In this document: piece by piece, positions 1 to 55,444 of the stretch
Layout: each line of letters starts with the position of its first letter
Numbering within the stretch: the stretch's first letter is position 1
Assembly (NCBI RefSeq): GCF_000003815.2
Contig: NC_049990.1
Span: forward strand, 673,395-737,394
Length of the DNA: 64,000 nt
From: Branchiostoma floridae
Lineage: Eukaryota; Chordata; Leptocardii; Amphioxiformes; Branchiostomatidae
Reading direction: 5' to 3'
Made by a program: the position numbers and the translations under genes
The notes under the pieces: generated by a model
Databases searched by the model: none
Told to the model about the DNA's origin: nothing
Seen by the model: only the letters and a program-made list of their open reading frames with translations

Positions 1-1
1 G

Positions 2-1723
2 GGAACACTATCAACATCTGCCAGTGGTCATGATCAGACAAGGCAGGGTCAGTCTAAGGCCATCACAGAATCCACCAAAAACACCACAGCTAGTGTAGTG
101 GCCAGTATTCATGATCACCAGTATGAAGATATAGACAAACAACACAATCAGACAAGGCAGGGCCAGTCTCAGGCCATCACAGAATCCACCACAAACACCA
201 CAGCTAGTGTAGTGGCCAGTGTTCATGATCACCAGTATGAAGATATAGACAAACAACACAATCAGAAAAGGCAGGGTCAGTCTAAGGCCATCACTGAATC
301 CAACACAAACACCACAGCTGCTGTAGTGGCCTGTGGTCATGATCACCAGTATGAAGATATAGACAAACAACACAATCAGACAAGGCACGGCCAGTCTCAG
401 GCCATCACTGAATCCAACACAAACACCACAGCTAGTGTTGTGGCCAGTGGTCATGATCACCAGTATGAAGATATTGACAGACAACACAATCAGAAAAGGC
501 AGGGTCAGTCTCAGGCCATCACTGAATCCAACACAAACACCACAGCTAGTGTAGTGGCCAGTGGTCATGATCACCAGAATGAAGATATAGACAAACAACA
601 CAATCATGCAACGCAGGGTCAGTCTAAGGCCATCACAGAATCCAACACAAACACCACAGCTAGTGTAGTGGCCAGTGTTCATGATCACCAGTATGAAGAT
701 ATAGACAAACAACACAATCAGACAAGGCAGGGTCAGTCTAAGGCCATCACAGAATCCAACACAAACACCACAGCTAGTGTAGTGGCCAGTGTTCATGATC
801 ACCAGTATGAAGATATAGACAAACAACACAATCAGACAAGGCAGGGTCAGTCTAAGGCCATCACAGAATCCAACACAAACACCACAGCTAGTCAAGTGGC
901 CAGTGGTCATGATCACCAGTATGAAGATATTGACAGACAACACAAACAGACAGAGCAGGGCCAGTCTCAGGCCATCACAGAATCCAACACAAACACCACA
1001 GCTGCTGTAATGACCAGTGGTCTTGATCAACAGTATGAAGATATGGCCCCTCAACACAATCAGACAGGGCGGGGCCAGTCTCAGGCCATCAATAAATCCA
1101 ACACAAACCCAAAAGCTACAGTAGTGACCAGTGGTCATGATCACCAGTATAAAAACATGGACAGCCAGACAGGGCAGGATAATCCTCAGGCCATCACTAA
1201 CTCCTTTGATGCTAGAAATCTATCATATGGCACAGGGCCGACTGCCTCGCAGCTTAATTCCTTGTACACAAACACCACAGCTGTTGTGGAAGCTAGTGGT
1301 TCTGATCAGGCAGGGCAGGGCCAGTCTCAGGCTGTCACTGAATCCTTGGATGCTGGTATTCTATCTTATGGCACAGGGCCGACTGCCTCACAGCTTAATT
1401 CCTTGTACAACGTTGAGCGCCAGTATCAGGCCATTATTAAATCCAACTCGGGCACAGCAGCTGCTGTAGGAACCGGTGGTCATGATCAGACTGGGCAGTG
1501 CCAGTCTCAGGCCGTCATTGAAACTAACACAAAGACCACAGCTATTGCAGTGACCAGTAGCAATGATAGACATCATCAATGTATGGCCCCCCATCCCCAA
1601 AACAATCAGGCAGATCTGGTTCAGTCTCAGGCCATCACTCAATCCAACCCAAACACTACAGCTGCTGTAGTGCCCAGTGGTCATGATCAGACAGAGTTGG
1701 GCCAGTCTCATGGCCAGCACTGA
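2..1723 (+). CDS. LRR1: 3' part of LRR transmembrane protein, cytoplasmic YEDI-repeat tail
   Basis: The reading frame is open from the window edge, so the LRR ectodomain lies outside. It begins at the point matching LRR2 position about 13096 and consists of 38-residue (114-bp) repeats with the core HDHQYEDIDKQHNQ. I count seven YEDI units, one unit whose Tyr is Asn (HQNEDI, about 576-585), one YEDM unit and one YKNM unit, followed by degenerate repeats rich in Gln, Thr, Ser and Asn. By family resemblance this is the cytosolic tail of a single-pass receptor, with Tyr sites of SH2-ligand type. A +1 change near 1711 shifts the frame to a TGA at 1721-1723, just before the gap at 1751. The other copies continue to a STYLR-type C-terminus. 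The shift may be a real mutation or an error at the contig edge. Confidence 0.8.
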   Translation, partial: GTLSTSASGHDQTRQGQSKAITESTKNTTASVVASIHDHQYEDIDKQHNQTRQGQSQAITESTTNTTASVVASVHDHQYEDIDKQHNQKRQGQSKAITESNTNTTAAVVACGHDHQYEDIDKQHNQTRHGQSQAITESNTNTTASVVASGHDHQYEDIDRQHNQKRQGQSQAITESNTNTTASVVASGHDHQNEDIDKQHNHATQGQSKAITESNTNTTASVVASVHDHQYEDIDKQHNQTRQGQSKAITESNTNTTASVVASVHDHQYEDIDKQHNQTRQGQSKAITESNTNTTASQVASGHDHQYEDIDRQHKQTEQGQSQAITESNTNTTAAVMTSGLDQQYEDMAPQHNQTGRGQSQAINKSNTNPKATVVTSGHDHQYKNMDSQTGQDNPQAITNSFDARNLSYGTGPTASQLNSLYTNTTAVVEASGSDQAGQGQSQAVTESLDAGILSYGTGPTASQLNSLYNVERQYQAIIKSNSGTAAAVGTGGHDQTGQCQSQAVIETNTKTTAIAVTSSNDRHHQCMAPHPQNNQADLVQSQAITQSNPNTTAAVVPSGHDQTELGQSHGQH

Positions 1724-1750
1724 ATCCAACCCAAACACCACAGTTGCTGT

Positions 1751-4032: not shown

Positions 4033-4281
4033 CTGGGGAAAGATCCGTGCTACGATGGCAGGATGCAGCTGAGCTTTCTTCAGCTGGTAGGGATTCTGAG
4101 GTAAGGAATACGGTTGGAGAGGCCGCCGGGATGTCCAGAGGACCTGTACCGACTGATGAGGTCGTGTTGGCGCGACGTTCCAGATACCAGACCGACTCCG
4201 GAAGGGATAGAAGAGAGGCTGCTGCAATTGAGACGTGCACTGCTTCCACATGACGTCATTGAAATGGAGACTGTGGTGTAG
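4033..4281 (+). pseudogene. RTK kinase C-lobe relic 1
   Basis: Eighty-three codons match the last part of the RTK kinase domain, from LGKDPCYDGR through RLMRSCWRDVPDTRPTPEG to the C-terminal ETVV and TAG. A TAA at 4102-4104 replaces the Gln of the paralogs' ILRQG. Nothing upstream resembles the rest of a kinase. The 3' flank, with an AATAAA at 4566-4571, matches that downstream of RTK3 rather than RTK1, and the distance to the next RTK start (1.7 kb) equals that between RTK3 and RTK4. It is best read as the stump of a deleted upstream RTK. Confidence 0.85.
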
Positions 4282-5994: not shown

Positions 5995-8857
5995 ATGGCA
6001 ACTGATGTGAAGGGATTGTTTGTTGTGGGTTTCTGGGTTGCTTCTGTCAACCTTCTTTGTTCTGCTCGGGCCCAGGAGTTCAGCGTTTCCGTACCAGAAA
6101 ACGTCGCTGTTGGGGAGACCATTTTCAGCCTACCAGGGACCCGGGCTGGAGAAAAAGCGGAACTTCCGTGTGCCAAAATGGAGGGAGATCCGTACGGCCG
6201 CTTTAATGTGACGAAGAACTGCACTATTGTGGTCGCCAACCCGCTGGACTGGTCAGTGCAGTCGGCATATTTGCTGACAATCCGCAGTGGAGTCCACAAC
6301 ACGAGAGTTAAGATAGAGTTGAGTGACGTTGAGGGCTATCCTCCTGTGTATAACGAGACGTGTGAAACTCCGGTCAACCCTGACCGAAAGACGGGAGATT
6401 TACTATACAGTGTAACTACATCAGGGGAATTTGTGACGACGACCGGAGATGTTTTCTTTAGCAAAGGAATACGTATTACAAAAGTCCCCCACGATACTGA
6501 CTGGAAAAAGGATTCTTGGATGTTTTACACCGACAATAGTGACTGCAACATTCGCATAGCGGTTAAGACTGATCATATTTATGATTTAACAGTCTTACAA
6601 GACATATGGGACAACGACATTAAACAGGTGACATGCACTCACTCACTCACTCACTCACTCATCCTCTTGCACATGCACTGCGGGTTACAAATCATCAAAA
6701 ATAAATATGAACCTGTTTAGTCTTAAATGGGAAAACACTAGTATCGAGTATTTAAGGAAGTATGTTCCCGAACACGTCGTGAAAGCAAGATATCTTAACT
6801 TCATCGTTGTCATTTCTTTGACGGTTCCTACAACAGAAGCAGTGCTATACAACTGTGAAATCCCAAAATTTCGCACCCCGGTCGGATCAACAGTGCATGA
6901 CATCATAAGATCATTTGCGAGTATTGAATATCTGGACATGCGAATAACACCAGTCGGCTGCCCAGTTGGAAAATATGGCTTCAACTGCCACAAAACCTGC
7001 ATCTGTAAGAACGGCGCCCGCTGCCACGGGTTTAACGGTGCCTGCAAATGTCCGCCCGGCTGGAAAGGTGTGGCCTGTGACATTCCCAAACAAGACGTCT
7101 CCATCACGACGACACCTAGCGATCCTAGCCACATCTACATTTCCGCAAATATCACGTTTCATTGCAAGACACACCATGTCGATGCTGAATACATCTCGCT
7201 TACATTTCAAAATGCAACCAAGAAAGTCAGATTTGGTGAAAAGGAGATAGACTTTGTAGTTCCGAATATACAATCAACCAACAGCGGGCCCTACACCTGC
7301 CAGGTCCGAGACACCCGGGGAAACACACTCAACACCACGTTTGTGCTCAATGTTACCAACTGTGCTCCAGACACAAAAGGTGCCCGGTGTGATGAAGTGT
7401 GTGGTTGCCTACAAGGTGCCAGCTGTGACCGCTGGGCTGGTTGTGTCTGTCCGCCGGGATGGACAGGAACCAGGTGTCTGACCAAATGTCCCCATGGCAA
7501 GTACGGACAAGACTGTGCTAAGAACTGTAGCTGTCAAAATGGAGCGACTTGTGGCCCTAGTGACGGTAGGTGTGAATGTGAAGCCGGATGGTACGGAAGG
7601 AATTGTAGCAAACCATGTGTAAACGGTCGGTTCGGTTGGAGATGTCATGAAGTTTGTGCCTGTAAGAACAATGCTACATGTAGCAATGTGGACGGTAGCT
7701 GCACATGTATGACACCATGGACGGGACGGAACTGTGACCAGTTGCAGACAAGCGCAGATCAACCGATGCTCGAAATCCTGGTCTCACTGGGCTCCTTAGT
7801 CTTATTTGTTGCCATAGTGATGGCCATACTCTACATAACGGGTATTCTGGCTTGCTCCGCATCTGACACAGGCGAGGAGGACAAGATACTTTTCGAGCTG
7901 AGGAGAATGGAGCAGGATCTAGCACAGAGCCTACAGCCGGGCTGGCTGGGACGTTGGGAGAAGAAGATCAAACATCTTACTCCTGGTCCCCTGATAGGAG
8001 AAGGAATGTTTGGACTAGTCAGAAAAGGAAAGCTGCGCACACCTGAGGGAGAGCTCGCCGTTGCCGCGAAAACAGTTCGCGTCGAGGACTCACAGTCCTA
8101 TCGAGACTTCTACAGAGAAGCAGCCATTTTGGTAGCTGTGCACCAACAACGAGATGGCGATTGTCGTGAGTCCAACATTGTTCAACTTGTGGGGCTCATC
8201 ACCAAGTCTGCGGAGAAGTACATTCTTCTGGAATACGCCCCGAAAGGCGATCTCTTGGGCTTCCTTCGCCGATCTGGGAACATCAATGAGAAAGGCCTAC
8301 TTGGAAACCTTCTTGGATACGCAGTCCACATAGCACGAGCTCTACAAGAGCTGGAACGCTTGAGAATCGCCCATCGTGACGTGGCCGCTCGCAACGTCCT
8401 CATCACTGCCGATGACGTGGCCAAGCTGGCTGACTTTGGACTGGCCAGAGATGTCTACGCCACTACTCAGTATGTCCGATCCAACCGTCCAGGCGTTGAC
8501 GAACTCCTTCCGCTGAAGTGGATGGCGCTGGAGTCCATCGAGACCGGCGAGTACACTTGTCTGAGTGACGTCTGGTCCTTCGGCGTGCTGCTGTGGGAGA
8601 TCGCCACGCTGGGGAAAGATCCGTGCTACGATGGCAGGATACAGCTGAGCTTTCTTCAGATGGTGGGGATTCTGAGGCAAGGCATACGGTTGGAGAGGCC
8701 ACCGAAATGTCCAGAGGACCTGTACCGACTGATGAGGTCGTGTTGGCGCGACGTTCCAGATACCAGACCGACTCCAGAAGGGATAGAAGAGAGGCTGCTG
8801 CAACTGAGACGTGCATTGCTTCCACATGACGTCATTGAAATGGAGACTGTGGTGTAG
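5995..8857 (+). pseudogene. RTK1: receptor tyrosine kinase, frameshifted by a 40-bp insertion
   Basis: Frame 1 (5995-6720) encodes a signal peptide (LLCSARAQ end), a cadherin-like stretch (VPENVAVGE ... NPLDWSVQSAYLLTI) and more ectodomain. Frame 2 (6707-8857) carries EGF, Ig, three EGF-like modules, TM and a full kinase: GEGMFGLV loop, VAAK lysine, HRDVAARN, DFGLARD, KWMALE, and C-terminal ETVV. Relative to RTK5 there is a 40-bp insertion at 6640-6679, made of CACT repeats between two copies of ACATGCACT. It shifts the frame by one and creates a stop at 6718-6720. I see no GT-AG pair that would remove it. A recent pseudogene, a null allele, or an assembly slip in a microsatellite are all possible. 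The gene is intronless. AATAAA lies at 9361 and 9405. Confidence 0.8.
6631..6679 (+). repeat. CACT microsatellite and 9-bp duplication inside RTK1
   Basis: ACATGCACT at 6631-6639 and 6671-6679 flank a run of CACT units plus a short unique piece. RTK3, RTK4 and RTK5 have a single ACATGCACT here, so the event is private to RTK1 and is the cause of its frameshift. Confidence 0.9.
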
Positions 8858-9826: not shown

Positions 9827-10075
9827 GCAGCTAAAGCTGCTCTTGTGGCTTGACAGGTATGTTGCTGCCGGTGGATAAACTTTAAGGGTAAATCTGTTAT
9901 GTCCAAATGTTGTTATAACTTAATCAGGATTGATATCAGTCCCGCCCTGTAGGTAAGACTAACCCCCGGTTGTTAACCACACGACATTACGGACCAGCTA
10001 CCGACGGCCGCATCCTACACAACAACAGCCTGAGCCATCACGGACCAGCTACCGACGGCCGCACCCTGCACACCA

Positions 10076-11633: not shown

Positions 11634-14600
11634 ATGTGGAAAAAGCTGCGACACGTGCTGATCTTTCTTCTCGTCCTCCTCAATGAGTCCAACATGTCAG
11701 AAGCTTGGTGTGGTAGAGACTCTCTTACTTGCCGACCAGACCAACCGGGATGTTGGAACAAGCGTAATTTCACCAGCATCCCTCAGAATATTGAACATGG
11801 CGAGCTCAAATCTTTATCTTTGCAACATAACTTGATGACAAAGATTCAGCCCGATGCATTTGTTAAGCTGAGCAGCATAAGGAAGTTGGACCTGTTGTCC
11901 AACCATATAACAAATATACCGGCAGGTACATTTGCACCGCTATGCTATCTCCATTCTTTGTGCTTGTCCCGCAACAGGATAGCAATGATTCAGAATGGCA
12001 CATTTGCAGGTCTACGCCGGCTAAAAAAGTTAATCATGGCCCATAACAGGATAACAAGGATTGAATCTGGTGCGTTTGCAGAGTTACCCCAGCTCTCGGA
12101 GATCAACCTGTCATTCAATCAGATAACAACGATTGAGGCAGGTACATTTGCAGACCTACCACGTCTCTTAAAGTTATCGATGAAAAACAACAAGATAGCT
12201 AAGATCGATCCTGGTGTGTTTGCAGAGTTACCATGGCTACAAATGCTGATCCTATCCTCCAACCAGATAACAATGATTCGAACTGGCACATTTGCAGACC
12301 TACCCATCCTCATAAACTTGTATCTGGAGTCCAATCAGATAACAAAGATTCAGCCCTGTGCATTTGTAAATCTACCCCAGCTACAGGTTAAACTAGATAA
12401 CGAGCGCGAGCATATGCTGGAAGGATCGATTTGTGAAGAACGAACCATATCAACACTGTCTGTTGATATCCAAACCTCCTTCCAGTCATCTTTAGTTTCA
12501 ACGTCTTCTCTGTTTGGCAGCACAGAAATCAATGCTGGTCCAACAGCACGACCTAAAGGCTTCACATCTGCCACACAGTCCTCGTTTGGTCCTTCACAAA
12601 GTGCTAACAACAGTTACAATGGAACCGTCACCTCTCGCTATCACTGGTACTTCAAGCGCGATTTTGGTTCAACTGCAAGTTCTGCAGGCAATAAAAGCCA
12701 AGCTAGAGCAACACCACCTTCCCTCCTTGCAATTACACCAGACAAACCAGAAATCCGCAGTTCTCATGAATTATCTGCCAATTTACCCAACGCTGTTCTC
12801 ATTGCCTCAATCTGTGGTTCAATAGCTGGCATTGTCCTGATTGGCAGCATCATTCTCACTATCTGGTGCAAGAGGAGGACCAGCCATCCTCCTCTAGGAC
12901 TAAATCCCAATGTTGTTAGTACCAACACTAGCACAACGGTTTCTGTAATGACAAGTGGCCAGAATGAAAATGAAAACAAGGATCATGATCAGACAGGGCA
13001 GGGCCAGTCTCAGGCTAACGCCAGATCTTTGAAGGTTGAAAACCTGCCACAAAACGTGCTAGCTGCCTTAAAGCCAAACCCTCTGTACGCAGGTGTGGGA
13101 ACACTATCAACATCTGCCAGTGGTCATGATCACCAGTATGAAGATATAGACAACCAACACAATCAGAAAAGGCAGGGTCAGTCTAAGGCCATCACTGAAT
13201 CCAACACAAACACCACAGCTGCTGTAGTGGCCAGTGGTCATGATCACCAGTATGAAGATATAGACAAACAACACAATCATGCAACGCAGGGTCAGTCTAA
13301 GGCTATCAGTGAATCCAACAAAAACACCACAGCAGCTGTAATGACCAGTGGTCATGATCACCAGTATGAAGATATAGACAAACAACACAATCAGACAGGG
13401 AAGGCCCAGTCTCAGGCCATCACAGAATCCAACAAAAACACCACAGCTGCTGTAGTGGCCAGTGGTCATGATCACCAGTATGAAGATATAGACAAACAAC
13501 ACAATCAGACAAGGCAGGGCCAGTCTCAGGCCATCACAGAATCCAACACAAACACCACAGCTGCTGTAATGACCAGTGGTCTTGATCACCAGTATGAAGA
13601 TATAGACAAACAACACAATCAGACAAGGCAGGGCCAGTCTAAGGCCATCACAGAATCCACCAAAAACACCACAGCTAGTGTAGTGGCCAGTATTCATGAT
13701 CACCAGTATGAAGATATAGACAAACAACACAATGAGACAAGGCAGGGTCAATCTACGGCCATCACAGAATCCACCAAAAACACCACAGCTAGTGTAGTGG
13801 CCAGTGTTCATGATCACCAGTATGAAGATATAGACAAACAACACAATCAGACAAGGCAGGGCCAGTCTCAGGCCATCACTGAATCCAACACAAACACCAT
13901 AGCAACTATAGAGGCCAGCGGTCATGATCACCAGTATGAAGATATAGACAAACAACGCAATCAGACAGAGAAGAGCCAGTCTCAGGCCATCACAGAATCC
14001 AACACAAACACCACAGCTGCTGTAATGACCAGTGGTCTTGATCAACAGTATGAAGATATGGCCCCTCAACACAATCAGACAGGGCGGGGCCAGTCTCAGG
14101 CCATCAATAAAACCAACACAAACCCCAAAGCTACAGTAGTGACCAAGGGTCATAATCACCAGTATAAAAACATGGACAGCCAGACAGGGCAGGATAATCC
14201 CCAGGCCATCACTAACTCCTTTGATGCTAGAAATCTATCATATGGCTCAGGGCCGACTGCCTCACACCTTCACTCCTTGTACAACTTGAGGGCCAACTCG
14301 GGCACCACAGCTGCTATAGTAACTAGTGGTCATGACAAGACAGGGCAGGGCCAGTCTCAGGCCGTCACTAACTCCTTTGATGCTAGAAATCTATCTTATG
14401 GCACAGGGCCTACTGCCTCACAGCTTAATTCCTTGTACAACGTTGAGCGCCAGTATCAGGCCATCATTAAATCCAACTCGGGCACAGCAGCTGCTGTAGG
14501 AACCAGTGGTCATGATCAGACTGGGCAGTGCCAGTATCAGGCCGTCATTGAAACTAACACTAAGACCACAGCTACTACAGTGACCAGTAGCAATGATAGA

Positions 14601-14990
14601 CATCATCAATGTATGGCCCCCCATCCCCAAAACAATCAGGCAGATCTGGTTCAGTCTCAGGCCATCACTCAATCCAACCCAAACACCACAGCTGCTGTAG
14701 TGGCCAGTGGTCATGATCAGACAGGGCAGGGCCAGTCTCAGGCCATCCCTGAATCCAACCCAAACACCACAGCTGCTGTAGTGACCAGTGGTCATGATCA
14801 GACAGAGCAAGGCCAGTCTCAGGTCATCACTGACTCATCTGATGCGGGGTCGTGTGGCGTGACGGCAGGTTGTTTGGCCCAGAACCCAGAGGTCCCGGGT
14901 TCAAATCCACAAGGAAATTTGGACGACGTCTCTCCCTTCAATAATGTTGAAATAAGTACCTATCTACGTCTCAGGCAGTCCCTCGAATAG
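11634..14990 (+). CDS. LRR2: LRR single-pass membrane protein with multi-tyrosine tail
   Basis: A 1118-residue single-exon protein. In order: signal peptide (about 1-24), a Cys pair (CGRDSLTCRPDQPGC), eight LRRs of the LxxLxLxxNxITxIxxGTFAxLP type (about 50-245), a short C-terminal cap with Cys, a Ser/Thr-rich stalk, and a TM helix at about 386-408 with a GSIAG (GxxxG) motif followed by CKRR. The long cytoplasmic tail from about 496 has 38-residue repeats holding eight YEDI, one YEDM and one YKNM. Further C-terminal Tyr sites follow, and the end is STYLRLRQSLE. YEDI resembles Src-family SH2 ligands and YxxM resembles PI3K p85 ligands (established motif classes). Ligand unknown; extracellular recognition is inferred from the LRRs. 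The last about 45 residues derive from a tRNA-like sequence and its flank. Confidence 0.9.
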   Translation: MWKKLRHVLIFLLVLLNESNMSEAWCGRDSLTCRPDQPGCWNKRNFTSIPQNIEHGELKSLSLQHNLMTKIQPDAFVKLSSIRKLDLLSNHITNIPAGTFAPLCYLHSLCLSRNRIAMIQNGTFAGLRRLKKLIMAHNRITRIESGAFAELPQLSEINLSFNQITTIEAGTFADLPRLLKLSMKNNKIAKIDPGVFAELPWLQMLILSSNQITMIRTGTFADLPILINLYLESNQITKIQPCAFVNLPQLQVKLDNEREHMLEGSICEERTISTLSVDIQTSFQSSLVSTSSLFGSTEINAGPTARPKGFTSATQSSFGPSQSANNSYNGTVTSRYHWYFKRDFGSTASSAGNKSQARATPPSLLAITPDKPEIRSSHELSANLPNAVLIASICGSIAGIVLIGSIILTIWCKRRTSHPPLGLNPNVVSTNTSTTVSVMTSGQNENENKDHDQTGQGQSQANARSLKVENLPQNVLAALKPNPLYAGVGTLSTSASGHDHQYEDIDNQHNQKRQGQSKAITESNTNTTAAVVASGHDHQYEDIDKQHNHATQGQSKAISESNKNTTAAVMTSGHDHQYEDIDKQHNQTGKAQSQAITESNKNTTAAVVASGHDHQYEDIDKQHNQTRQGQSQAITESNTNTTAAVMTSGLDHQYEDIDKQHNQTRQGQSKAITESTKNTTASVVASIHDHQYEDIDKQHNETRQGQSTAITESTKNTTASVVASVHDHQYEDIDKQHNQTRQGQSQAITESNTNTIATIEASGHDHQYEDIDKQRNQTEKSQSQAITESNTNTTAAVMTSGLDQQYEDMAPQHNQTGRGQSQAINKTNTNPKATVVTKGHNHQYKNMDSQTGQDNPQAITNSFDARNLSYGSGPTASHLHSLYNLRANSGTTAAIVTSGHDKTGQGQSQAVTNSFDARNLSYGTGPTASQLNSLYNVERQYQAIIKSNSGTAAAVGTSGHDQTGQCQYQAVIETNTKTTATTVTSSNDRHHQCMAPHPQNNQADLVQSQAITQSNPNTTAAVVASGHDQTGQGQSQAIPESNPNTTAAVVTSGHDQTEQGQSQVITDSSDAGSCGVTAGCLAQNPEVPGSNPQGNLDDVSPFNNVEISTYLRLRQSLE
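13119..14160 (+). repeat. 114-bp coding tandem repeat in LRR2
   Basis: Nine consecutive 114-bp units (repeat starts at 13119, 13233 and so on) encode the YEDI/YEDM repeat; the next unit diverges to YKNM. The equivalent array in LRR1 has about the same number of units, LRR3 keeps two YEDI units, and LRR4 none. Confidence 0.92.
14846..14910 (+). mobile_element. tRNA-like (SINE head) sequence exonised in LRR2
   Basis: TGGCGTGACGG (14855-14865) fits a Pol III A box and GGTTCAAATCC (14898-14908) fits a B box, with tRNA-like spacing of about 43 bp start to start. The cloverleaf pairing is partly degenerate, so this is not a functional tRNA. It is translated in frame as part of the LRR2 C-terminus (NPEVPGSNP). 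Confidence 0.65.
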
Positions 14991-18031: not shown

Positions 18032-18037
18032 TTACTG

Positions 18038-18253
18038 CAGCTGAGCTTTCTTCAGATGGTGGGGATTCTGAGGCAAGGAATACGGTTGGAGAGGCCACCG
18101 GGATGTCCAGAGGACCCGTACCGACTGATGAGGTCGTGTTGGCGCGACGTTCCAGATACCAGACCGACTCCGGAAGGGATAGAAGAGAGGCTGCTGCAAC
18201 TGAGACGTGCACTGCTTCCACATGACGTCATTGAAATGGAGACTGTGGTGTAG
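18038..18253 (+). pseudogene. RTK kinase C-lobe relic 2
   Basis: Seventy-two codons from QLSFLQMVGILRQG to ETVV and TAG, uninterrupted, with one change (EDPYRL for EDLYRL). Upstream it joins the MITE directly, and the open frame runs back through the MITE to an ATG at 17882 (123 codons in all). Without P-loop, catalytic loop or DFG it cannot be a kinase. The 3' flank is of the RTK3 (a) type. RTK2 starts 1.66 kb downstream. Confidence 0.85.
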
Positions 18254-19909: not shown

Positions 19910-20990
19910 ATGGCAGGAACTGTTCAGGTGTTGCTTGTTGTGGGTTTCTGGGTTGTTTCTGTCAACCTCCTTTGTTCTGCTTGGGCCCAGGAGTTCAGCT
20001 TTTCCGTACCAGAAAACGTCACTGTTGGGGAGACCATTTTCAGCCTGCTAGGGACCCGGGCTGGAGAAAAAGCGGAACTTCCGTGTGCCAAAATGGAGGG
20101 AGATCCGTACGGCCGCTTTAATGTGACGAAGAACTGCACTATTGTGGTCGCCAATCCCCTGGACTGGTCAGTACAGTCGGCATATCTACTGACCATCCGC
20201 AGTGGAGTCCACAACACGAGAGTTAAAGGTGGGTTTACACCTGCGTATATTTTCATGCCGCATGAGTTCCGTTTTGACATTTTTCGACATTTTGACTAAT
20301 TTCTTCAATACGCGGCCGCACGCACAAGTCGCACCTCTATCGCATCTGAATCGTCTTTAGAAAGTTTCACGTACGCAGGCAAACGAAAATATACGCACAG
20401 TTCGTCTGATAGTTTTGGACATGCACAAAACTATCATTCGTACGCAGTTTGGTGCCCAAAACGTTATGGATGCGCAATACAGTGGTCCCACGTCGGTCGA
20501 TTGCGCTATGAAGACGCTACATGTTTGCGCTTTACACGCAGTAATACGCGGAAATCGCGGTAATGCGAGTACATAGCGTTCTTACAGCGCAGACACAACG
20601 CACCATGAGCGACCGTATAACGAATGCACACATAGATCACGATTTAGTACCGTGCGTTCTGCGATCGCTTTGCGCATACTACGCGTACTAATAGCGTGAT
20701 CGACGCACACTCCAGATTTGGAATAAATACGAAGGTGCATCTGACTCCAGACAAAAAAAATCATCTCAAGATGTATATAACTTTATTGCAGGATTCAGGG
20801 GATTCTGAGGCAAGGAATACGGTTGGAGAAGCCACCGGGATATCCAGAGGACCTGTACCGACTGATGAGGTCGTGTTGGCTCGACGTTCCAGATACCAGA
20901 CCGACTCCGGAAGGGATAGAAGAGAGGCTGCTGCAAATGAGACGTGCACTGCTTCCACATGACGTCATTGAAATGGAGACTGTGGTGTAG
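19910..20990 (+). pseudogene. RTK2: gutted receptor tyrosine kinase
   Basis: From ATG 19910 the signal peptide and cadherin-like N-terminus match the other RTKs up to VHNTRVK (about 20226). Homology then stops. About 570 bp of unrelated TACGC-rich sequence follows, and homology resumes at 20799 (GILRQG) to the TAG at 20988-20990. EGF, Ig, TM and nearly all of the kinase, some 2.2 kb, are missing. The open frame runs on to a stop at 20297-20299, so at most a 129-residue secreted N-terminal fragment could be made. A potential donor (AAAG|GTGGGT) and acceptor (TTATTGCAG) flank the insert, but joining them puts the kinase tail out of frame and gives an immediate TGA. Confidence 0.85.
20227..20790. 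mobile_element. TACGC-rich insert replacing the body of RTK2
   Basis: Begins GGTGGGTTTACACCTGCGTA. It is rich in CG and TACGC words unlike its surroundings, and contains a hairpin (GATAGTTTTG ... CAAAACTATC, near 20409-20436). There is no transposase-like ORF. Probably a non-autonomous DNA transposon or several nested ones; the ends are not certain. Confidence 0.5.
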
Positions 20991-32422: not shown

Positions 32423-32428
32423 TTACTG

Positions 32429-32644
32429 CAGCTGAGCTTTCTTCAGATGGTGGGGATTCTGAGGCAAGGAATACGGTTGGAGAAGCCGCCGGGATGTCCA
32501 GAAAAGCTGTACCGACTGATGAGGTCGTGTTGGCGCGACGTTCCAGATACCAGACCGACTCCAGAAGGGATAGAAGAGAGGCTGCTGCAACTGAGACGTG
32601 CACTGCTTCCACATGACGTCATTGAAAAGGAGACTGTGGTGTAG
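32429..32644 (+). pseudogene. RTK kinase C-lobe relic 3
   Basis: Seventy-two codons from QLSFLQMVG to ETVV, open, preceded in frame by the MITE (ATG at 32273). It differs from relic 2 by several substitutions (RLEKPPGCPEKLYRL, EKETVV). It lacks all catalytic motifs. The 3' flank is of the a type, and RTK3 begins 1.7 kb downstream. Confidence 0.85.
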
Positions 32645-38875: not shown

Positions 38876-41671
38876 ATGGCAGGGAATGTGCAAGAGTTAC
38901 TTGTTGTGGGTTTCTGGGTAGTTTCTGTCAACCTTCTTTGTTCTGCTCGGGCCCAGGAGTTCAGCGTTTCCGTACCAGAAAACGTCGATGTTGGGGAGAC
39001 CATTTTCAGCCTACCAGAAAAAGCGGAACTTCCGTGTGCCAAAATGGAGGGAGATCCGTACGGCCGCTTTAATGTGACGAAGAACTGCACTATTGTGGTC
39101 GCCAACCCGCTGGACTGGTCAGTACAGTCGGCATATCTGCTGACAATCCGCAGTGGAGTCCACAACACGAGAGTTAAGATAGAGTTGAGTGACGTTGAGG
39201 GCTATCCTCCTGTGTATAACGAGACGTGTGAAACTCCGGTCAACCCTAACGGACAGACGGGATATTTGCTATACAGTTTAACTACATCAGGGGAATTTGT
39301 GACGACAGCCGGAGATGTTTTCTTTAGCAAAGGAATACATATTACAAAAGTCCCCCACGATACTGACTATAAACGGGACTCTTGGATGTTTTACACCGAC
39401 AACAGTGATTGCAACATTCGCATAGCGGTGAAGACTGATCATATTTATGATTTAACGGTCTTACAAGATGTATGGGAAAACGACATTCAACAAGTTACAT
39501 GCACTGCGGGTTACAAATCATCAAAAATAGTGATGGACCTGTTTAGTCTTAAATGGGGTGAAAACACTAGTATTGAGCATTTAAGGAGGTATGTTCCTGA
39601 ACACGTCATAAAAGCAAGATATCTTAACTTCATCGTTGTCATTTTTTTGACGGTTCCTACAACAGAAGGAATGCTATACAACTGTGAAATCCCACAATTT
39701 CGCACCCCGGTCGGATCAACAGTGCATGACATCATCAGATCATTTGCAAATATTGAATATCTGGACATGCGAATAACACCAGTGGGCTGCCCAGTTGGAA
39801 AATACGGCTTCCTCTGCCACAAAACCTGCATCTGTAAGAACGGCGCCCGCTGCCACGGGTTTAACGGTGCCTGCAAATGTCCGCCCGGCTGGAAAGGTGT
39901 GGCCTGTGACATTCCCAAACAGGACGTCTCCATCACGACGACACCTAGCGACCTTCGCGATATCTACATTTCCGCAAATATCATATTTCATTGCAAGGCA
40001 CACCATGTCGACATTAGGTCCATGTCGGTTACATTTCCAAATGCGACAAAGAACGTTCACTTCGATGTGAACGAGATTTACTTTGTGGTTCCGAACATAC
40101 AACCAACCAACAGCGGACCGTACACCTGCCAGGTCCGAGACACCCGGGGAAACACACTCAACACCACGTTTGTGCTCAATGTTACCAACTGTGCTCCAGA
40201 CACAAAAGGTGCCCGGTGTGATGAAGTGTGTGGTTGCCTACAAGGTGCCAGCTGTGACCGCTGGGCTGGTTGTGTCTGTCCGCCGGGATGGACAGGAACC
40301 AGGTGTCAGACAAAATGTCCCCATGGCATGTACGGTAAAAACTGTGCAAGGAACTGTAGCTGCCTAAATGGGGCGAGCTGTAGCCCTAGCGACGGTAAGT
40401 GTGACTGCACCGACGGGTGGTATGGAAAGGATTGTAGCAAACCGTGTCCAAACGGTCGGTTCGGTTTGCTTTGTCAGCAGGTTTGTGCCTGTAAGAACAA
40501 TGCTACATGTAACAACGTGGACGGCAGCTGCGCATGTGTGACGCCATGGACGGGACGGAACTGTGACCAATTGCCAAGCACAGATCAACCGCTGCTCGAA
40601 AGTCTGGTCTCACTGGGATGCTTAATCGTACTTGTTGCCATAGTGATGGGCACACTCTACAAAAAGGGCATTCTGGCTTGCTCCGCACCTGACACAGGTG
40701 AGGAGGACAAGATACTTTTCGAACTGAGGAGAATGGAGCAGGATCTAGCACAGAGCCTACAGCCGGGCTGGCTGGGACGTTGGGAGAAGAAGATCAAACA
40801 TCTTACTCCTGGTCCTCTGATAGGAGAAGGAATGTTTGGACTGCACACAACTGAGGGAGAGCTCGCCGTTGCCGCCAAGACAGTTCGCGTCGAGGACTCA
40901 CAGTCCTACCGAGACTTCTACAGAGAAGCAGCCATTTTGGTAGCTGTGCACCAACAACGGGATGGCGATTGCCGTGAGTCCAGCATTGTTCGACTTGTGG
41001 GGCTCATCACCAAGTCTGCGGATAAGTACATTCTTCTGGAATATGCCTCCAAAGGAGATCTGTTGGGTTTGCTACGACGATTTGGGAACATCAACGAGAA
41101 AGACCAACTTGGAAACATTCTTGGCTACGCAGTCCACATAGCACGAGCCCTACAAGAGCTGGATCGCTTGAGAATCGCCCATCGTGACGTGGCCGCTCGC
41201 AACGTCCTCATCACTGCCGATGACGTGGCCAAGCTGGCTGACTTTGGACTGGCCAGAGATGTCTACGCCGCTAATCAGTATATCCGAGCCAACCGTCCAG
41301 GCGTTGACGAACTCCTTCCGCTGAAGTGGATGGCGCTGGAGTCCATCGAAACCGGCGAGTACACGTGTCAGAGTGACGTCTGGTCCTTCGGCGTGCTGCT
41401 GTGGGAGATCGCCACGCTTGGGAAAGATCCGTGCTACGATGGCAGGATGCAGCTGAGCTTTCTTCAGATGGTAGGGATTCTGAGGCAAGGCATACGGTTG
41501 GAGAGGCCGCCGGGATGTCCAGAGGACCTGTACCGACTGATGAGGTCGTGTTGGCTCGACGTTCCAGATACCAGACCGACTCCGGAAGGGATATCGATAG
41601 AAGAGAGGCTGCTGCAACTGAGACGTGGACTGCTTCCACATGACGTCATTGAAATGGAGACTGCGGTGTAA
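38876..41671 (+). CDS. RTK4: receptor tyrosine kinase with deleted glycine-loop strand
   Basis: Single exon, 931 residues, very close to RTK3 throughout the ectodomain. The kinase domain lacks six residues just after the glycine-rich loop: RTK3 reads GEGMFGLVRKGKLHTTEG and RTK4 reads GEGMFGLHTTEG (about 40843). This removes the conserved Val and the beta-2 strand that clamps ATP. The 18-bp deletion lies between two ACT words. VAAK, HRDVAARN and DFGLARD are intact. Two extra codons (IS) occur at TPEGISIEERL near 41592. The C-terminus is ETAV, still a class I PDZ-ligand type. It may be a pseudokinase or a weak kinase. 3' flank of b type with AATAAA at 42176. Confidence 0.9.
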   Translation: MAGNVQELLVVGFWVVSVNLLCSARAQEFSVSVPENVDVGETIFSLPEKAELPCAKMEGDPYGRFNVTKNCTIVVANPLDWSVQSAYLLTIRSGVHNTRVKIELSDVEGYPPVYNETCETPVNPNGQTGYLLYSLTTSGEFVTTAGDVFFSKGIHITKVPHDTDYKRDSWMFYTDNSDCNIRIAVKTDHIYDLTVLQDVWENDIQQVTCTAGYKSSKIVMDLFSLKWGENTSIEHLRRYVPEHVIKARYLNFIVVIFLTVPTTEGMLYNCEIPQFRTPVGSTVHDIIRSFANIEYLDMRITPVGCPVGKYGFLCHKTCICKNGARCHGFNGACKCPPGWKGVACDIPKQDVSITTTPSDLRDIYISANIIFHCKAHHVDIRSMSVTFPNATKNVHFDVNEIYFVVPNIQPTNSGPYTCQVRDTRGNTLNTTFVLNVTNCAPDTKGARCDEVCGCLQGASCDRWAGCVCPPGWTGTRCQTKCPHGMYGKNCARNCSCLNGASCSPSDGKCDCTDGWYGKDCSKPCPNGRFGLLCQQVCACKNNATCNNVDGSCACVTPWTGRNCDQLPSTDQPLLESLVSLGCLIVLVAIVMGTLYKKGILACSAPDTGEEDKILFELRRMEQDLAQSLQPGWLGRWEKKIKHLTPGPLIGEGMFGLHTTEGELAVAAKTVRVEDSQSYRDFYREAAILVAVHQQRDGDCRESSIVRLVGLITKSADKYILLEYASKGDLLGLLRRFGNINEKDQLGNILGYAVHIARALQELDRLRIAHRDVAARNVLITADDVAKLADFGLARDVYAANQYIRANRPGVDELLPLKWMALESIETGEYTCQSDVWSFGVLLWEIATLGKDPCYDGRMQLSFLQMVGILRQGIRLERPPGCPEDLYRLMRSCWLDVPDTRPTPEGISIEERLLQLRRGLLPHDVIEMETAV

Positions 41672-46161: not shown

Positions 46162-48925
46162 ATGTGGAAAAAGCTGCGACACGTGCTGATCTTTCTTCTC
46201 ATCCTCCTGAATGAGTCCAACGCGTCAGAAACTTTCTGTGAAACCTTCTATACTTGCCAACGCTCCGAATTGGGATGTTGGAACAAGCGTGGTTTCACCA
46301 GCATCCCTCAGAATATCACGTACGGCGACTTCTTATCTTTGCAACAAAACTTCATAACAAAGATTCAGCCCGAGACATTTGTTAAGCCATTGGGACTAAG
46401 TAAGTTGGACCTGGTGTCCAACCATATAACAGATATACCGGCAGGTACATTTGCACCGTTGTGCAATCTCCAACAGTTGTGCTTGTCCCTCAACAGGATA
46501 ACAATGATTCAGAATGGCACATTTGCAGGTCTACGCCGGCTAGAAAAATTAATCATGGCCCATAACAATATAACAAGGATTGCGCGTGGTGCGTTTACAG
46601 AGTTACCCCACCTCGGCTTGATCGACCTGTCATTCAATAAGATAACAACGATTCAGGCAGGTACATTTGCAGACCCACCCCGTCTAGGCAAGTTATATTT
46701 GGGCAACAACAGGATAACTAAGATCTATCCTGGTGTGTTTGCAGAGTTACCCCGGCTTCAAATACTGATCCTATTCGCAAACCAGATAACAATGATTCAA
46801 ACTAGCGCATTTGCAGAGTTGCCGGAGCTCTTTACGTTGAACCTAATCTTCAACGGGATAACAATGATTCGAACTGGCACATTTGCAGACCTTCCCAGCC
46901 TCAAAAACTTGTATCTGGAATACAATCCGATAACAGAGATTCAGCCCTGTGCATTTGTAAATCTGCCCGAGCTATGGAATGTTGAAGTAGACGACAGGCA
47001 GATGCTGGAAGGATCGATATGTGAAGAACGAACCATATCAACACTGTCTGTTGATATCCAAACCTCCTTCCAGTCATCTCCAGTGTCAACATCTTCTCCG
47101 TTTGGTAGCACAGAAATCAATGCTGGTCCAACAGCGCGCCCTGAAGCCTCCACATCTGCCACACAGCCCATAATTGGTCCAATGCAAAGTGCTAACAACA
47201 GTTACAATGGCACCGTCACCTCTCGCTATAACTGGTACTTCAAGCGCGATTCTGGGTCAACTGCAAGTTCTGCAGGCAATACAAGCCAAGATAGAGCAAT
47301 AACACCTTCCCTCCTTGCAATTACCTCAGACAAACCAGAAATCCACAGTTCTCATGAATTGTCTCCCAATTTACCCAATGCTGTTCTCATTGCCACTATA
47401 TGTGGTTCAATAGCTGGCATTGTCCTGATTGGCAGCATCATTCTCATTATCTGGTGCAAGAGGAGGACCAGCCATCCTCCTCTAGGACTAAATCCCAATG
47501 TTGTTAGTACCAACACTAGCACAACGGTTTCTGTAATGACAAGTGACCAGAATGAACATGAAAACAAGGATCATGATCAGACAGGGCAGGGCCAGTCTCA
47601 GGCTAACACCAGATCTTTGAAGGTTGAAAACCTGCCACAAAACGTGCTAGCTGCCATAAAGCCAAATCCTATGCACGCAGATGTGGGAACACCATCAACA
47701 TCTGCCAGTGGTCATGATCAGACAAGGCAGGGCCAGTCTCAACAGTACGAAAATATTGCCCCCAAACACAATCAGACAGGTCAGGGCCAGTTACAGGCCA
47801 TCACAGAACCCAACGCAAACAGTAGAGCTACTGCAGTGGCCAGGGGTCATAAGCAGCAATATGAAAATATTGGCAGCCAACACAATCAGACAGGGCAGGA
47901 CAAGTCCCAGGCTATCACTTATTCCTTAGATGCTACAAATATGTCTTATGGCACAGGACCGACAGCCTCCCAGCCAAATTCCTTGTACACAAACACCACA
48001 GCTGTCGTGGAAGCTAGTGGTCATGATCAGACAGGTCAGGGTCAGGCCATCACTAATTCAGCAGACGCTACAAATCTATCTTATGGCACAGGACCGACTG
48101 CCTCACAGCCAAATTCCTTGTACACAAACACCACAGCTGTTGTGGAAGCTAGTGGTCATGATCAGACAGGTCAGGCTCAGGCCATCACTAATTCAGCAGA
48201 CGCTACAAATCTATCTTATGGCACAGGACCGACTGTCTCANNNNNNNNNNNNNNNNNNNNNNNNNNNNNNNNNNNNNNNNNNNNNNNNNNNNNNNNNNNN
48301 NNNNNNNNNNNNNNNNNNNNNNNNNNNNNNNNNNNNNNNNAGTGGTCATGATCAGACAGGTCAGGGTCAGGCCATCACTAATTCAGTAGACGCTACAAAT
48401 CTATCTTATGGCACAGTCTCAGGCCAGTCTCAGGCCATCACTGAATCCAACCCAAACACTACAGCTGCTGTAGTGACCAGCGGTTATGATCAGACAGGGC
48501 AGGGCCAGTCTCAGGTCATCGCTGAATCCAAACCAAACACCACAGCTGCTGTAGTGACCAGTGGTCATGATCAGACAGGGCAGGGCCAGTCTCAGGCCAT
48601 CACTGAATCCAAACCAAACACCACAGCTGATGTAGTGACCAGTGGTCATGATCAGACAGGGCAGGGCCAGTCTCAGGCCATCACTGAATCCAACCCAAAC
48701 ACTAAAGCTGCTGTAGTGACCAGCGGTCATGATCAGACAGGGCAGGGCCAGTCTCAGGCCATCACTGACTCATCTGATGCGGGGTCGTGTGGCGTAGCGT
48801 CAGGTTGTTTGGCCCAGAACCCAGAGGTCCCGGGTTCAAATCCACAAGGCACTCTGGACGACGTCTCTCCATGCAATAATGTTAAAATAAGTACCTATCT
48901 ACGTATCAGGCCGTCCCTCGAATAG
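46162..48925 (+). CDS. LRR4: LRR single-pass membrane protein with YENI tail (gap inside)
   Basis: Single exon interrupted by a 100-N gap at 48241-48340. The frame changes across the gap (stop at 48351 in one frame, continuation to TAG 48923-48925 in another), so the N length is wrong, not the gene. The N-terminal 540 residues are almost those of LRR3: signal peptide, nine LRRs, stalk, TM at about 407-429 and CKRR. The tail has lost every YEDI unit and goes straight from GQSQ to QYENI. It keeps two YENI motifs, repeated NSLYTNT and SYGTG segments, then four SGHDQTGQGQSQ-type repeats without Tyr. It ends with the tRNA-derived segment and STYLRIRPSLE. The tail therefore looks biased to Grb2-type (YxN) sites. 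Confidence 0.85.
48241..48340. other. assembly gap inside LRR4
   Basis: One hundred N in the repeat region. The true length must differ by one or two modulo 3 to restore the frame. Confidence 0.95.
48781..48845 (+). mobile_element. tRNA-like (SINE head) sequence exonised in LRR4
   Basis: A box variant TGGCGTAGCGT at 48790-48800 and B box GGTTCAAATCC at 48833-48843. The A-box difference from LRR2 and LRR3 is compensated so that the frame is kept. Confidence 0.65.
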
Positions 48926-52618: not shown

Positions 52619-55444
52619 ATGGCAGGAAATGTGCAGGGATTACTTGTTGCATGTTTCTGGGTTGTTTCTGTCAACCTTCTTTCTTCTGCTCGGGCCCAGG
52701 AGTTCAGCGTTTCCGTACCAGAAAACGTCGCTGTTAGGGAGACCATTTTCAGCCTACCAGGGACCCGTGCTGGAGAAAAAGCGGAACTTCCGTGTACCAA
52801 ACTGGAGGGAGATCCGTACGGCCGCTTTAATGTGACGAAGAACTGCACTATTGTGGTCGCCAATCCCCTGGACTGGTCAGTACAGTCGGCATATCTGCTG
52901 ACAATCCGCAGTGGAGTCCACAACACAAGCGTTAAGGTAGAGTTGAGTTACGTTGAGGGCTATCCTCCTGTTTATAACGAGACGTGTGAAACTCCGGTCA
53001 ACCCTAACGGACAGACGGGAGATTTACTATACAGTTTAACTACATCAGGAGAATTTGTGACGACGACCGGAGATGTTTTCTTTAGCAAAGGAATACGTAT
53101 TACAAAAGTCCCCCACGATACTGACTGGAAAAAGGATTCTTGGATGTTTTACACCGACAATAGTGACTGCAACATTCGCATAGCGGTTAAGACTGATCAT
53201 ATTTATGATTTAACAGTCTTACAAGACATATGGGACAACGACATTAAACAGGTGACATGCACTGCGGGTTACAAATCATCAAAAATAGTGATGGACCTGT
53301 TTAGTCTTAAATGGGGTGAAAACACTAGTATTGAGCATTTAAGAAAGTATGTTCCTGAACACGTCATAAAAGCAAGATATCTCAACTTCATTGTTGTCAT
53401 TTCCTGGACGGTTCCTACAACAGAAGCAATGCTATACAACTGTGAAATCCCACAATTTCGCACCCCGGTCGGATCAACAGTGCATGACATCATAAGATCA
53501 TTTGCGAGTATTGAATATCTGGACATGCGAATAAACCCAGTGGGCTGCCCAGTTGGAAAATACGGCTTCCTCTGCCACAAAACCTGCATCTGTAAGAACG
53601 GCGCCCGCTGCCACGGGTTTAACGGTGCCTGCAAATGTCCGCCCGGCTGGAAAGGTGTGGCCTGTGACATTCCCAAACAGGACGTCTCCATCACGACGAC
53701 ACCTAGCGACCTTCGCGATATCTACATTTCCGCAAATATCATATTTCATTGCAAGGCACACCATGTCGACGTTAGGTCCATGTCGGTTACATTTCCAAAT
53801 GCGACAAAGAACGTTCACTTCGATGTGAACGAGATTTACTTTGTGGTTCCGAACATACAACCAACCAACAGCGGACGCTACACCTGCCAGGTCCGAGACA
53901 CCCGGGGAAACACACTCAACACCACGTTTGTGCTCAATGTTACCAGCTGTGCTCCAGACACAAAAGGTGCCCGGTGTGATGAAGTGTGTGGTTGCCTACA
54001 AGGTGCCAGCTGTGACCGCTGGGCTGGTTGTGTCTGTCCGCCGGGATGGACAGGAACCAGGTGTCAGAGAAAATGTCCCCATGGCACGTACGGTCAAGAC
54101 TGTGCGAGGAAATGTACCTGTCAAAATTGGGCGACCTGTGACCCTAGCGACGGTAAGTGTGACTGCATCGACGGGTGGTATGGAAAGGATTGTAGCAAAC
54201 CGTGTCCAAACGGTCGGTTCGGTTTGCTTTGTCAGCAGTTTTGTGCCTGTAAGAACAGTGCTGTGTGTAGTAACGTGGACGGCAGCTGCGCATGTGTGAC
54301 GCCATGGACAGGACCGGACTGTGACCAATTGCAGACAAGCACAAATGAACCGCTGCTCGGAAGTTTAGTTCCACTGTGGTCCTTAGTCTTACTTGTTGCC
54401 ATAGTGATGGCCATACTCTACAGAGCAGGCATTCTGGCTTGCTCCGCACCTGACACAAGTGAGGAAGACAAGATACTTTTCGAGCTGAGGAGAATGGAGC
54501 AGGATCTAGCACAGAGCCTACAGCCGGGCTGGCTGGGACGTTGGGAAAAGAATATCAAACATCTTACTCCTGGTCCACTGATAGGTTTAGGAATGTTTGG
54601 ACTAGTCAGAAAAGGAAAACTGCGCACACCTGAGGGAGAGCTCGCCGTTGCCGCCAAGACAGCTCGCGTCGAGGACTCACAGTCCTACCGAGACTTCTAC
54701 AGAGAAGCAGCCATTTTGGTGGCTGTGCACCAAGAACGAGATGGCGATTGTCGTGAGTCCAACATTGTTCGCCTTGTGGGGCTCATCACCAAGTCTGCGG
54801 AGAAGTACATTCTTCTGGAATATGCCTCCAAAGGAGATCTCTTGAATGTTCTATACGGAATAAGAATCACTAATGAGGAAGGCCTACTTGGAAACCCTCT
54901 TCGTTACGCAATCCACATAGCTCGAGCTCTACAAGAGCTGGAACGCTTGAGAATCGCCCATCGTGACGTGGCCGCTCGCAACGTCCTCATCACTGCCGAT
55001 GACGTGGCCAAGTTGGCTGACTTTGGACTGGCCAGAGATGTCTACGCCGCTACTCAGTATGTCCGATGCAACCGTCCTGGCGTTGACGAACTCCTTCCGC
55101 TGAAGTGGATGGCGCTGGAGTCCATCGAGACCGGCGAGTACACCTGTCAGAGTGACGTCTGGTCCTTCGGCGTGCTGCTGTGGGAGATCGCCACGCTGGG
55201 GAAAGATCCGTGCTACGATGGCAGGATGCAGCTGAGCTTTCTTCAGATGGTGGGGATTCTGAGGCAAGGAATACGGTTGGAGAGGCCGCCGGGATGTCCA
55301 GAGGACCTGTACCGACTGATGAGGTCGTGTTGGCGCGACGTTCCAGATACCAGACCGACTCCGGAAGAGATAGAAGAGAGGCTGCTGCAACTGAGACGTG
55401 CACTGCTTCCACATGACGTCATAGAAATGGAGACTGTGGTGTAG
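52619..55444 (+). CDS. RTK5: cadherin-like/EGF/Ig/EGF receptor tyrosine kinase
   Basis: Single exon, 941 residues from ATG 52619 (an in-frame ATG at 52562 exists, but the MAGNVQ start is conserved). Signal peptide 1-27; cadherin-like stretch about 28-115 (VPENVAV, NPLDWSVQSAY); unassigned Cys-containing ectodomain to about 305; EGF-like about 308-350; Ig-like about 355-441; three EGF-like modules about 444-575; TM about 581-602; kinase about 649-930. Lys of VAAKT at about 680, HRDVAARN at about 781-788 and DFGLARD at about 801 are present. The glycine loop reads GLGMFGLV, so the usual Glu is Leu but all glycines remain. Ends ETVV. Full-length and probably active. Its promoter lacks the inverted-repeat element, and it is the most diverged copy. 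Confidence 0.92.
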   Translation: MAGNVQGLLVACFWVVSVNLLSSARAQEFSVSVPENVAVRETIFSLPGTRAGEKAELPCTKLEGDPYGRFNVTKNCTIVVANPLDWSVQSAYLLTIRSGVHNTSVKVELSYVEGYPPVYNETCETPVNPNGQTGDLLYSLTTSGEFVTTTGDVFFSKGIRITKVPHDTDWKKDSWMFYTDNSDCNIRIAVKTDHIYDLTVLQDIWDNDIKQVTCTAGYKSSKIVMDLFSLKWGENTSIEHLRKYVPEHVIKARYLNFIVVISWTVPTTEAMLYNCEIPQFRTPVGSTVHDIIRSFASIEYLDMRINPVGCPVGKYGFLCHKTCICKNGARCHGFNGACKCPPGWKGVACDIPKQDVSITTTPSDLRDIYISANIIFHCKAHHVDVRSMSVTFPNATKNVHFDVNEIYFVVPNIQPTNSGRYTCQVRDTRGNTLNTTFVLNVTSCAPDTKGARCDEVCGCLQGASCDRWAGCVCPPGWTGTRCQRKCPHGTYGQDCARKCTCQNWATCDPSDGKCDCIDGWYGKDCSKPCPNGRFGLLCQQFCACKNSAVCSNVDGSCACVTPWTGPDCDQLQTSTNEPLLGSLVPLWSLVLLVAIVMAILYRAGILACSAPDTSEEDKILFELRRMEQDLAQSLQPGWLGRWEKNIKHLTPGPLIGLGMFGLVRKGKLRTPEGELAVAAKTARVEDSQSYRDFYREAAILVAVHQERDGDCRESNIVRLVGLITKSAEKYILLEYASKGDLLNVLYGIRITNEEGLLGNPLRYAIHIARALQELERLRIAHRDVAARNVLITADDVAKLADFGLARDVYAATQYVRCNRPGVDELLPLKWMALESIETGEYTCQSDVWSFGVLLWEIATLGKDPCYDGRMQLSFLQMVGILRQGIRLERPPGCPEDLYRLMRSCWRDVPDTRPTPEEIEERLLQLRRALLPHDVIEMETVV

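Follow-up and report, generated by a model that had tools for sequence, protein, structure and literature searches.

Interleaved leucine-rich repeat receptors with tyrosine-motif tails and tyrosine-poor receptor kinases in a tandem array of Branchiostoma floridae

A 64,000-nucleotide stretch of the amphioxus Branchiostoma floridae (NC_049990.1, C12:673395-737394; "the window") carries at window positions 1-55444, on the + strand, an array in which genes for leucine-rich repeat (LRR) receptors with tyrosine motifs in their cytoplasmic tails are interleaved with genes for receptor tyrosine kinases (RTKs) whose cytoplasmic ends have almost no tyrosine. The pattern is real and the two families pair up locally; the anatomical traits of either partner also occur without the other. 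The explanation that best accounts for the whole, with a probability of roughly 55%, is a tandem birth-and-death array in which one duplicating unit would carry both single-exon receptor families, the LRR proteins would act as docking platforms and the RTKs would be PDZ-coupled. The LRR proteins would be diversifying surface sensors without an enzyme, and their low-complexity, presumably disordered tail may serve as a multi-site platform of SH2 ligands (YEDI/YEDV, YENI, YxxM and YxN), with its output altered through gain and loss of repeats of 38 amino acids (aa). This tail is probably phosphorylated in trans by some tyrosine kinase, and would then collect SH2 proteins. The RTKs would signal via PDZ scaffolds and through further phosphorylated partners; the LRR tail may be among these, though not as an obligatory one.

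Layout and block duplication of the array

The order along the + strand was LRR1 tail, RTK relic, RTK1, LRR2, relic, RTK2, LRR3, relic, RTK3, RTK4, LRR4 and RTK5; the alternation of both families on one strand, proposed earlier from the sequence alone (the original prediction), was thus borne out over bases 1-55444. The gene numbers given in that prediction held in part. Three RTK relics were indeed present, but only three of the five putative RTK genes (RTK3, RTK4 and RTK5) were open. Among the four putative LRR genes, LRR2 was whole, but only the tail of LRR1 lay in the window, and LRR3 and LRR4 were each interrupted by a gap of 100 N.

The repeated co-duplication of the two genes, also predicted, was supported by collinear units, mostly 86-93% identical, whose collinearity covered LRR, spacer, relic and RTK; the repeat tails were less similar (75-83%). 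RTK3 and RTK4 were 95.5% identical, and the 5' halves of LRR3 and LRR4 98.8%, which suggests later conversion or exchange. A promoter shared by LRR and RTK genes was not found, there being no similarity between the 800 bp upstream of LRR2 and LRR3 and those upstream of RTK1, RTK3 and RTK5. The array extended beyond the window, as part of two C12 clusters (C12:0.60-0.98 Mb) with 10 LRR and 18 RTK matches. The second cluster, mostly on the minus strand, was also interleaved (LRRs 75-80% identical, RTKs mostly 72-77%, one 90%), indicating that the LRR/RTK association has lasted there despite divergence. Two LRR loci (L029 and L032) showed near-alike LRR parts across both C12 clusters and unlike tails, suggesting exchange between the clusters.

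Anatomy of the LRR receptors

The LRR proteins consisted of typical LRRs, a stalk, one hydrophobic segment and a tail rich in T, Q, S and N, that is, at the sequence level, the plan of an SH2-docking LRR receptor (LRR ectodomain, transmembrane segment and tail tyrosines). LRR2 (11634..14990, +) was a single open frame of 1118 aa with LRRs, stalk, transmembrane segment and a 708-aa tail with 18 tyrosines; its docking repeats (13116..14165, +) were 114-bp (38-aa) units. LRR1 (2..1723, +) comprised the cytoplasmic tail only, followed by an N gap (1751-1850), and the gene starts upstream of the window, near C12:672 kb; it contained 7 YEDI, YEDM and YKNM. LRR3 (26132..28915, +; N gap 28081-28180) showed 2 YEDI, 2 YENI and 2 YTN, and LRR4 (46162..48925, +; N gap 48241-48340) 0 YEDI and 2 YENI outside the gap; in both genes the frames were open on either side of the gap. 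In the visible parts of LRR1 to LRR4, YEDI was present 7, 8, 2 and 0 times, and YxN 2, 1, 4 and 4 times. The figure of up to ten SH2-ligand-like tyrosines given in the original prediction agreed with the LRR2 tail (8 YEDI, 1 YEDM and 1 YKNM). Pfam reported no TIR domain in LRR2 or LRR3.

Three types of tail repeat were distinguished: 114 bp (38 aa, one tyrosine motif), 81 bp (27 aa, mostly tyrosine-free) and 135 bp (45 aa, two tyrosines). The 38-aa unit looks like the 27-aa unit extended by a docking module of 11 aa, HQYEDIDKQHN (33 bp difference). Tyrosine-motif peptides of the tails were HDHQYEDIDKQHN, QQYENIAP and QYEDMAP. The pattern of the immunoreceptor tyrosine-based inhibitory motif (ITIM), [SILV]xYxx[ILV], was found 0-2 times per tail piece and never at a YEDI repeat.

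The LRR parts of LRR3 and LRR4 differed by 2 nonsynonymous and 0 synonymous changes over 287 codons and their upstream regions were also near-identical, while their tails differed: they are the same sensor with an altered output. The last ~40 codons of three LRR genes (14830-14990, 28755-28915, 48765-48925) contained a tRNA-like stretch with what we take to be A-box-like and B-box-like elements (GGTTCAAATCC), as if a short interspersed element had turned coding; ARAGORN found no tRNA in the window or in these three 3' ends.

Anatomy and family traits of the RTKs

The RTKs are, from their sequence, single-exon mosaics, tentatively Tie/RET-like, of a weakly cadherin-like start, a Tie2-like Ig-EGF part and an FGFR-like kinase. 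RTK3 (34343..37153, +; 936 aa, canonical kinase motifs), RTK4 (38876..41671, +; 931 aa) and RTK5 (52619..55444, +; 941 aa) each formed one open frame between ATG and stop codon that requires no intron, although six residues (LVRKGK) of the glycine (ATP) loop were deleted in RTK4. HRDVAARN, DFG and WMALES were present in 4 of 4 copies examined, with the transmembrane segment placed by eye. The RTK5 kinase domain matched Pfam PF07714 with 211 bits; its closest solved structures were FGFR4 and FGFR3, then RET, with ABL and ROS at nearly equal scores. An EGFR chain (9p9u) was rejected as top kinase relative, as it ranked first through a double match and scored below FGFR per match.

The Ig-EGF part of RTK5 (query 376-544) matched three Tie2 sequences (E 8e-19 to 3e-18), and for the EGF part alone an EGF-like protein (6u11) outscored Tie2. 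No Pfam match to FN3 was reported before the transmembrane segment in RTK5 (E <=0.01) or in RTK3 and RTK4 (E <=1), so these RTKs were not filed as Tie receptors. The first ~70 residues scored 14.8 and 17.4 bits against the cadherin profile, below the cut-off of 28.8, and all 5 of their PDB matches were cadherins or a protocadherin, with weak E values (0.27-1.4). For the remainder of the N-terminal ~280 residues there was no convincing match in Pfam or in a profile search of the PDB, and an AlphaFold2 model of the N-terminal 279 aa (3-sequence alignment) was discarded (mean pLDDT 32).

Tyrosine-poor ends had been predicted for the RTKs, and the 44-aa juxtamembrane part and the 19-aa C-tail of RTK5 contained zero tyrosines; the C-tail, predicted to end about 15 residues after the kinase, measured 19 by the end of the Pfam match. 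Zero tyrosines in 63 residues of one RTK is unremarkable within the window (P=0.12), and the tyrosine-free tail of one gene was therefore rejected as evidence. At family level, with statistics that ignore the kinship of copies and are indicative, 17 C12, C15 and window copies (the broken L063, without tail, being in the set, and RTK1, RTK2 and RTK4 left out) had 1 tyrosine in 1009 juxtamembrane and tail residues (29.6 expected), and 20 loci elsewhere had 7 in 1199 (36.3 expected). Two of the latter (L018 and L021) have an LRR no more than 28 kb away; the 18 unlinked loci remaining had 6 in 1086 (33.3 expected). Docking-tail tyrosines of their own were thus almost lacking on the RTK ends in both the 17 copies and the 18 unlinked loci, and short tyrosine-poor ends at loci without an LRR indicate a trait independent of the LRR neighbour. 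Ten more distant RTKs, in which kinase and C-terminus were read, had short tails by eye, with tyrosine in the tail of L071 only.

The C-terminus was ETVV (ETAV in RTK4) at 8 of 8 RTK 3' ends in the window (METVV in RTK3 and RTK5, METAV in RTK4), within the peptide DVIEMETVV. We take the C-terminal [ST]-x-hydrophobic to be the class I PDZ ligand pattern; [ST]x[VILF] ends occurred in 16 of the 17 C12, C15 and window copies, 16 of the 20 loci elsewhere (15 of the 18 unlinked) and 1 of the ten more distant RTKs. In all, 32 of the 37 copies of the family that were examined carry a PDZ-type ligand, a point absent from the original prediction. Given almost no docking tyrosines of their own and a C-terminal PDZ ligand, the RTKs probably couple through PDZ scaffolds and phosphorylated partners.

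Genome-wide linkage of the two families

Linkage was defined as LRR and RTK rows within 20 kb of each other. The LRR3 stalk-transmembrane-tail query gave at least 153 genome-wide matches (147 used), the kinase query (PF07714) at least 141 (117 used, including some kinases of other families) and the RTK5 ectodomain at least 78, fragments counted; all these counts are lower bounds. Eleven of the 13 LRRs with >=75% identity were linked to an RTK row; ten of these are on C12, and the eleventh is a degenerate copy on C15. The remaining two comprise an LRR on C8, separated from an RTK by 27.7 kb, and one with no RTK near. Below 75% identity, 1 of 134 LRRs was linked, as expected by chance (0.73 expected; P(>=1) 0.52). 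Twenty-one of the 117 RTK rows were near such an LRR (18 at C12:0.60-0.98 Mb, two at C1:2.28 Mb and one on C15), and the other 96 lacked a family LRR at that distance. None of the 24 unused RTK rows had an LRR within 20 kb, and the nearest RTK relatives elsewhere (C5, C17, C12:6.55 and C8:16.23; 53-65%) had no such LRR neighbour. One LRR/RTK neighbourhood off C12 consisted of L048 (C1:2283500-2288600) and L018; the L048 tail, with YEDV and YEEV beside proline-rich stretches, is a different docking design.

These counts bear on the functional link of the original prediction, a two-component system in which the tail-less RTK would phosphorylate the LRR tail in trans, the tail would recruit SH2 proteins and linkage would hold the partners together. 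The complementary anatomy of the two proteins, the interleaving retained in the second, diverged cluster and the more distant pair at C1:2.28 Mb all fit such a system, as does the known RTK-dependent phosphorylation of an LRR protein (FGFR1/FLRT1, described in PMC2858647). Linkage within the genome does not back it: distant LRRs are near an RTK no more than expected, most kinase rows stand without an LRR, 18 unlinked RTK loci are tyrosine-poor, and YED[IV] was present in 4 of 11 examined LRRs without an RTK within 20 kb (L040, L042, L046 and L047). RTK copies also decay beside open LRR frames, and LRR4 has no YEDI repeat outside its gap. Since most relatives found of either gene stand alone, neighbourhood by itself is no proof of a working pair, and since short, tyrosine-poor RTK ends and LRR tails with tyrosine motifs both occur at unlinked loci, neither looks like an adaptation to its neighbour. 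A partnership in trans that does without linkage would be compatible with these counts. We consider the two-component system unlikely.

A broader variant, which we regard as doubtful, is that dozens of tail-less, PDZ-tethered RTKs handed docking to separate diversifying LRR receptors. With the same reserve, the arrangement might be likened to a multichain immune receptor made from RTK parts, in which a kinase chain would work alongside a variable sensor whose tail bears multiple phosphotyrosines; the C12 clusters would then be the site where both chains amplify together. If true, this split receptor would imply an immune-style division of labour between variable sensor and receptor kinase in a non-vertebrate chordate.

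LRR diversification and evolution of the tail repeats

Between LRR2 and LRR3, amino acid changes affected 17 of 35 exposed-strand codons versus 4 of 63 structural codons. In eight C12 LRRs, the nonsynonymous rate exceeded the synonymous rate at exposed-strand positions in 26 of 28 pairs (uncorrected counts from non-independent pairs), and the rate in the structural core was 0.00-0.03.

In the tails, the 21 window repeats in register gave a nonsynonymous to synonymous rate ratio (omega, dN/dS) of ~0.09 in QYEDI versus 0.89 elsewhere (Fisher p 0.028), and five random positions showed as few changes with p 0.008. Conservation of the QYEDI core is suggestive only. The tail tyrosine has apparently moved two residues, from QYEDI through QYEYM (both) to QHEYM in C8 copies, a series read from L032, L033 and L034 and from L039, L041 and L043.

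The tail repeats might also be a coding minisatellite without a docking role, in which tyrosine was merely carried by repeat expansion. The number of YEDI varies from 0 to 8 between paralogues, tyrosine is not enriched in the LRR2 tail (2.5%), core conservation was not significant in a larger repeat set and one clade apparently shifted its tyrosine (HQYEDI to QHEYM). This explanation is nevertheless improbable: one or two YED[IV] copies were present in relatives just 54-61% identical over the query part, the chance of an acid-acid-aliphatic sequence after a given tyrosine in this tail composition is 0.0014, and the core was conserved in the window arrays.

That the array is mostly decaying, with few copies expressed and a pairing without present function, fits the broken RTK1, RTK2 and three relics and the deleted RTK4 loop, but is improbable given the kinase dN/dS between copies (0.23-0.50, RTK1 included and so partly past constraint) and an LRR core conserved while exposed positions change.

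Weight of the evidence

Several observations weigh against the preferred reading of docking platforms and PDZ-coupled RTKs in a birth-and-death array. Per pair, just 0-3 synonymous changes fall on exposed LRR positions, and for LRR2/LRR3 the LRR part taken as a whole had a dN/dS of 1.08 (interval 0.73-1.81), so the case for LRR diversification rests on the contrast between positions. With 72 repeats from more loci, core conservation was unconfirmed (QYEDI 0.30 vs. 0.57, p 0.45; vs. 0.73 with unanchored flanks as contrast, p 0.11). YED[IV] was more frequent in the clade linked to RTKs (9 of 10 C12 LRRs and the C1 LRR vs. 4 of 11 unlinked LRRs), an excess which fits the two-component system too, although the C12 copies are one clade. 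The sites of the amphioxus receptor BbLcLRR are ITIM-like, and the window tails contain few strict ITIM patterns. In the RTKs, constraint on the Ig-EGF part was not clear (dN/dS 0.27-1.04), which blurs the contrast between a "constant" kinase and a "variable" sensor.

Whatever becomes of the split receptor, the RTKs form a large single-exon family with almost no docking tyrosines of their own and a retained PDZ-type ligand, and the LRRs a family with a fast-changing exposed face, together a testable, rapidly evolving surface-receptor system. The LRR/RTK array is a good system to test and is not yet evidence of a new signalling principle.

Other features of the window

The broken RTK copies were RTK1 (5995..8857, +), frameshifted with a first frame to 6675, a second from 6671 and a CACT microsatellite insert at 6636-6661, and RTK2 (19910..20987, +), gutted so that aa 1-119 (19910-20248) and aa 874-941 (20784-20987) remain; aa 120-873 were lost, with no N run between the two retained pieces. 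The three 3' relics (4033..4278, aa 860-941; 18035..18250 and 32426..32641, aa 870-941; all +) ended in ETVV.

Minisatellites of 51 bp were located between RTK copies and the next LRR (9544-11383, 21736-22193, 24171-24411, 42325-42570 and 44197-44437), and a 37-bp array of 35 copies, open in several frames, at 10062-11383. Open reading frames in these minisatellites and antisense to the tail repeats were rejected as genes, being taken as open through repetition. A 15-bp unit, ATGGACAATTTAAGT, was present in eight copies at 16042-16161. At 58225-61650 there was a gene in exons, presumably a short-chain (retinol-type) dehydrogenase-like gene by its motifs, with one exon repeated as a 153-bp tandem array. 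A reading frame on the minus strand at the right end of the window (63500-64000) was taken to be NHL-repeat-like by motif. The Rfam scan gave a single match, under the gathering score, which was ignored.

Comparison with known systems

No LRR/RTK receptor pair of this sort was reported among the matches listed from the open-licence literature. The RTKs resemble Tie2/TEK in their Ig-EGF part (E 8e-19) and differ from it in having no Pfam FN3, a weakly cadherin-like start, a single exon, a tyrosine-poor tail and a PDZ-type C-terminus. Expanded TIE/FGFR/PDGFR/RET-type kinases were reportedly described in amphioxus by D'Aniello in 2008. In the lamprey variable lymphocyte receptors (VLRs), the ectodomain is an LRR solenoid with changes concentrated on exposed strand positions. 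The LRR ectodomain of the window is likewise a solenoid whose changes concentrate on the exposed strands, and resembles those of LRRC15, LRIG1 and TLR3; the window LRRs are unlike all of these and VLR in combining a transmembrane segment with a docking tail, and Pfam gave no TIR for LRR2 or LRR3.

FGFR carries its own docking sites and is not known to share a gene cluster with FLRT1. FLRT1, an LRR membrane protein, is described as tyrosine-phosphorylated through FGFR1 with involvement of a Src-family kinase, and differs from the window LRRs in its fibronectin domain (PMC2858647). Closer at hand, amphioxus BbLcLRR is described as tyrosine-phosphorylated through Lck and as binding SHIP1 and, less so, SHP1/2 (PMC8211107). 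Like the window LRRs, it is a single-pass LRR receptor with tail tyrosines, which in BbLcLRR become phosphorylated through a kinase of the Src family and serve as binding sites for SH2 phosphatases; it differs in its 699 aa, its WSC domain and its three ITIM or ITIM-like tyrosines, the likeness drawn here being one of described features (PMC8211107). Another amphioxus protein, FrLRR, has been described in connection with Grb2 (PMC10199209).

The substrate domain of p130Cas (PMC5043372, PMC3983058) offers several tyrosine motifs in a disordered region as a Src substrate; p130Cas differs in being cytosolic with YxxP sites for Crk, while the window LRR would be a transmembrane sensor with YEDI. 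The pYEEI sequence is described as binding SH2 domains of the Src family with high affinity (PMC5547543), and YEDI may be matched to it by resemblance. Because of this resemblance, which would allow bind-and-phosphorylate processivity, a Src-family kinase appears, by analogy with BbLcLRR, the likelier main kinase of the LRR tail.

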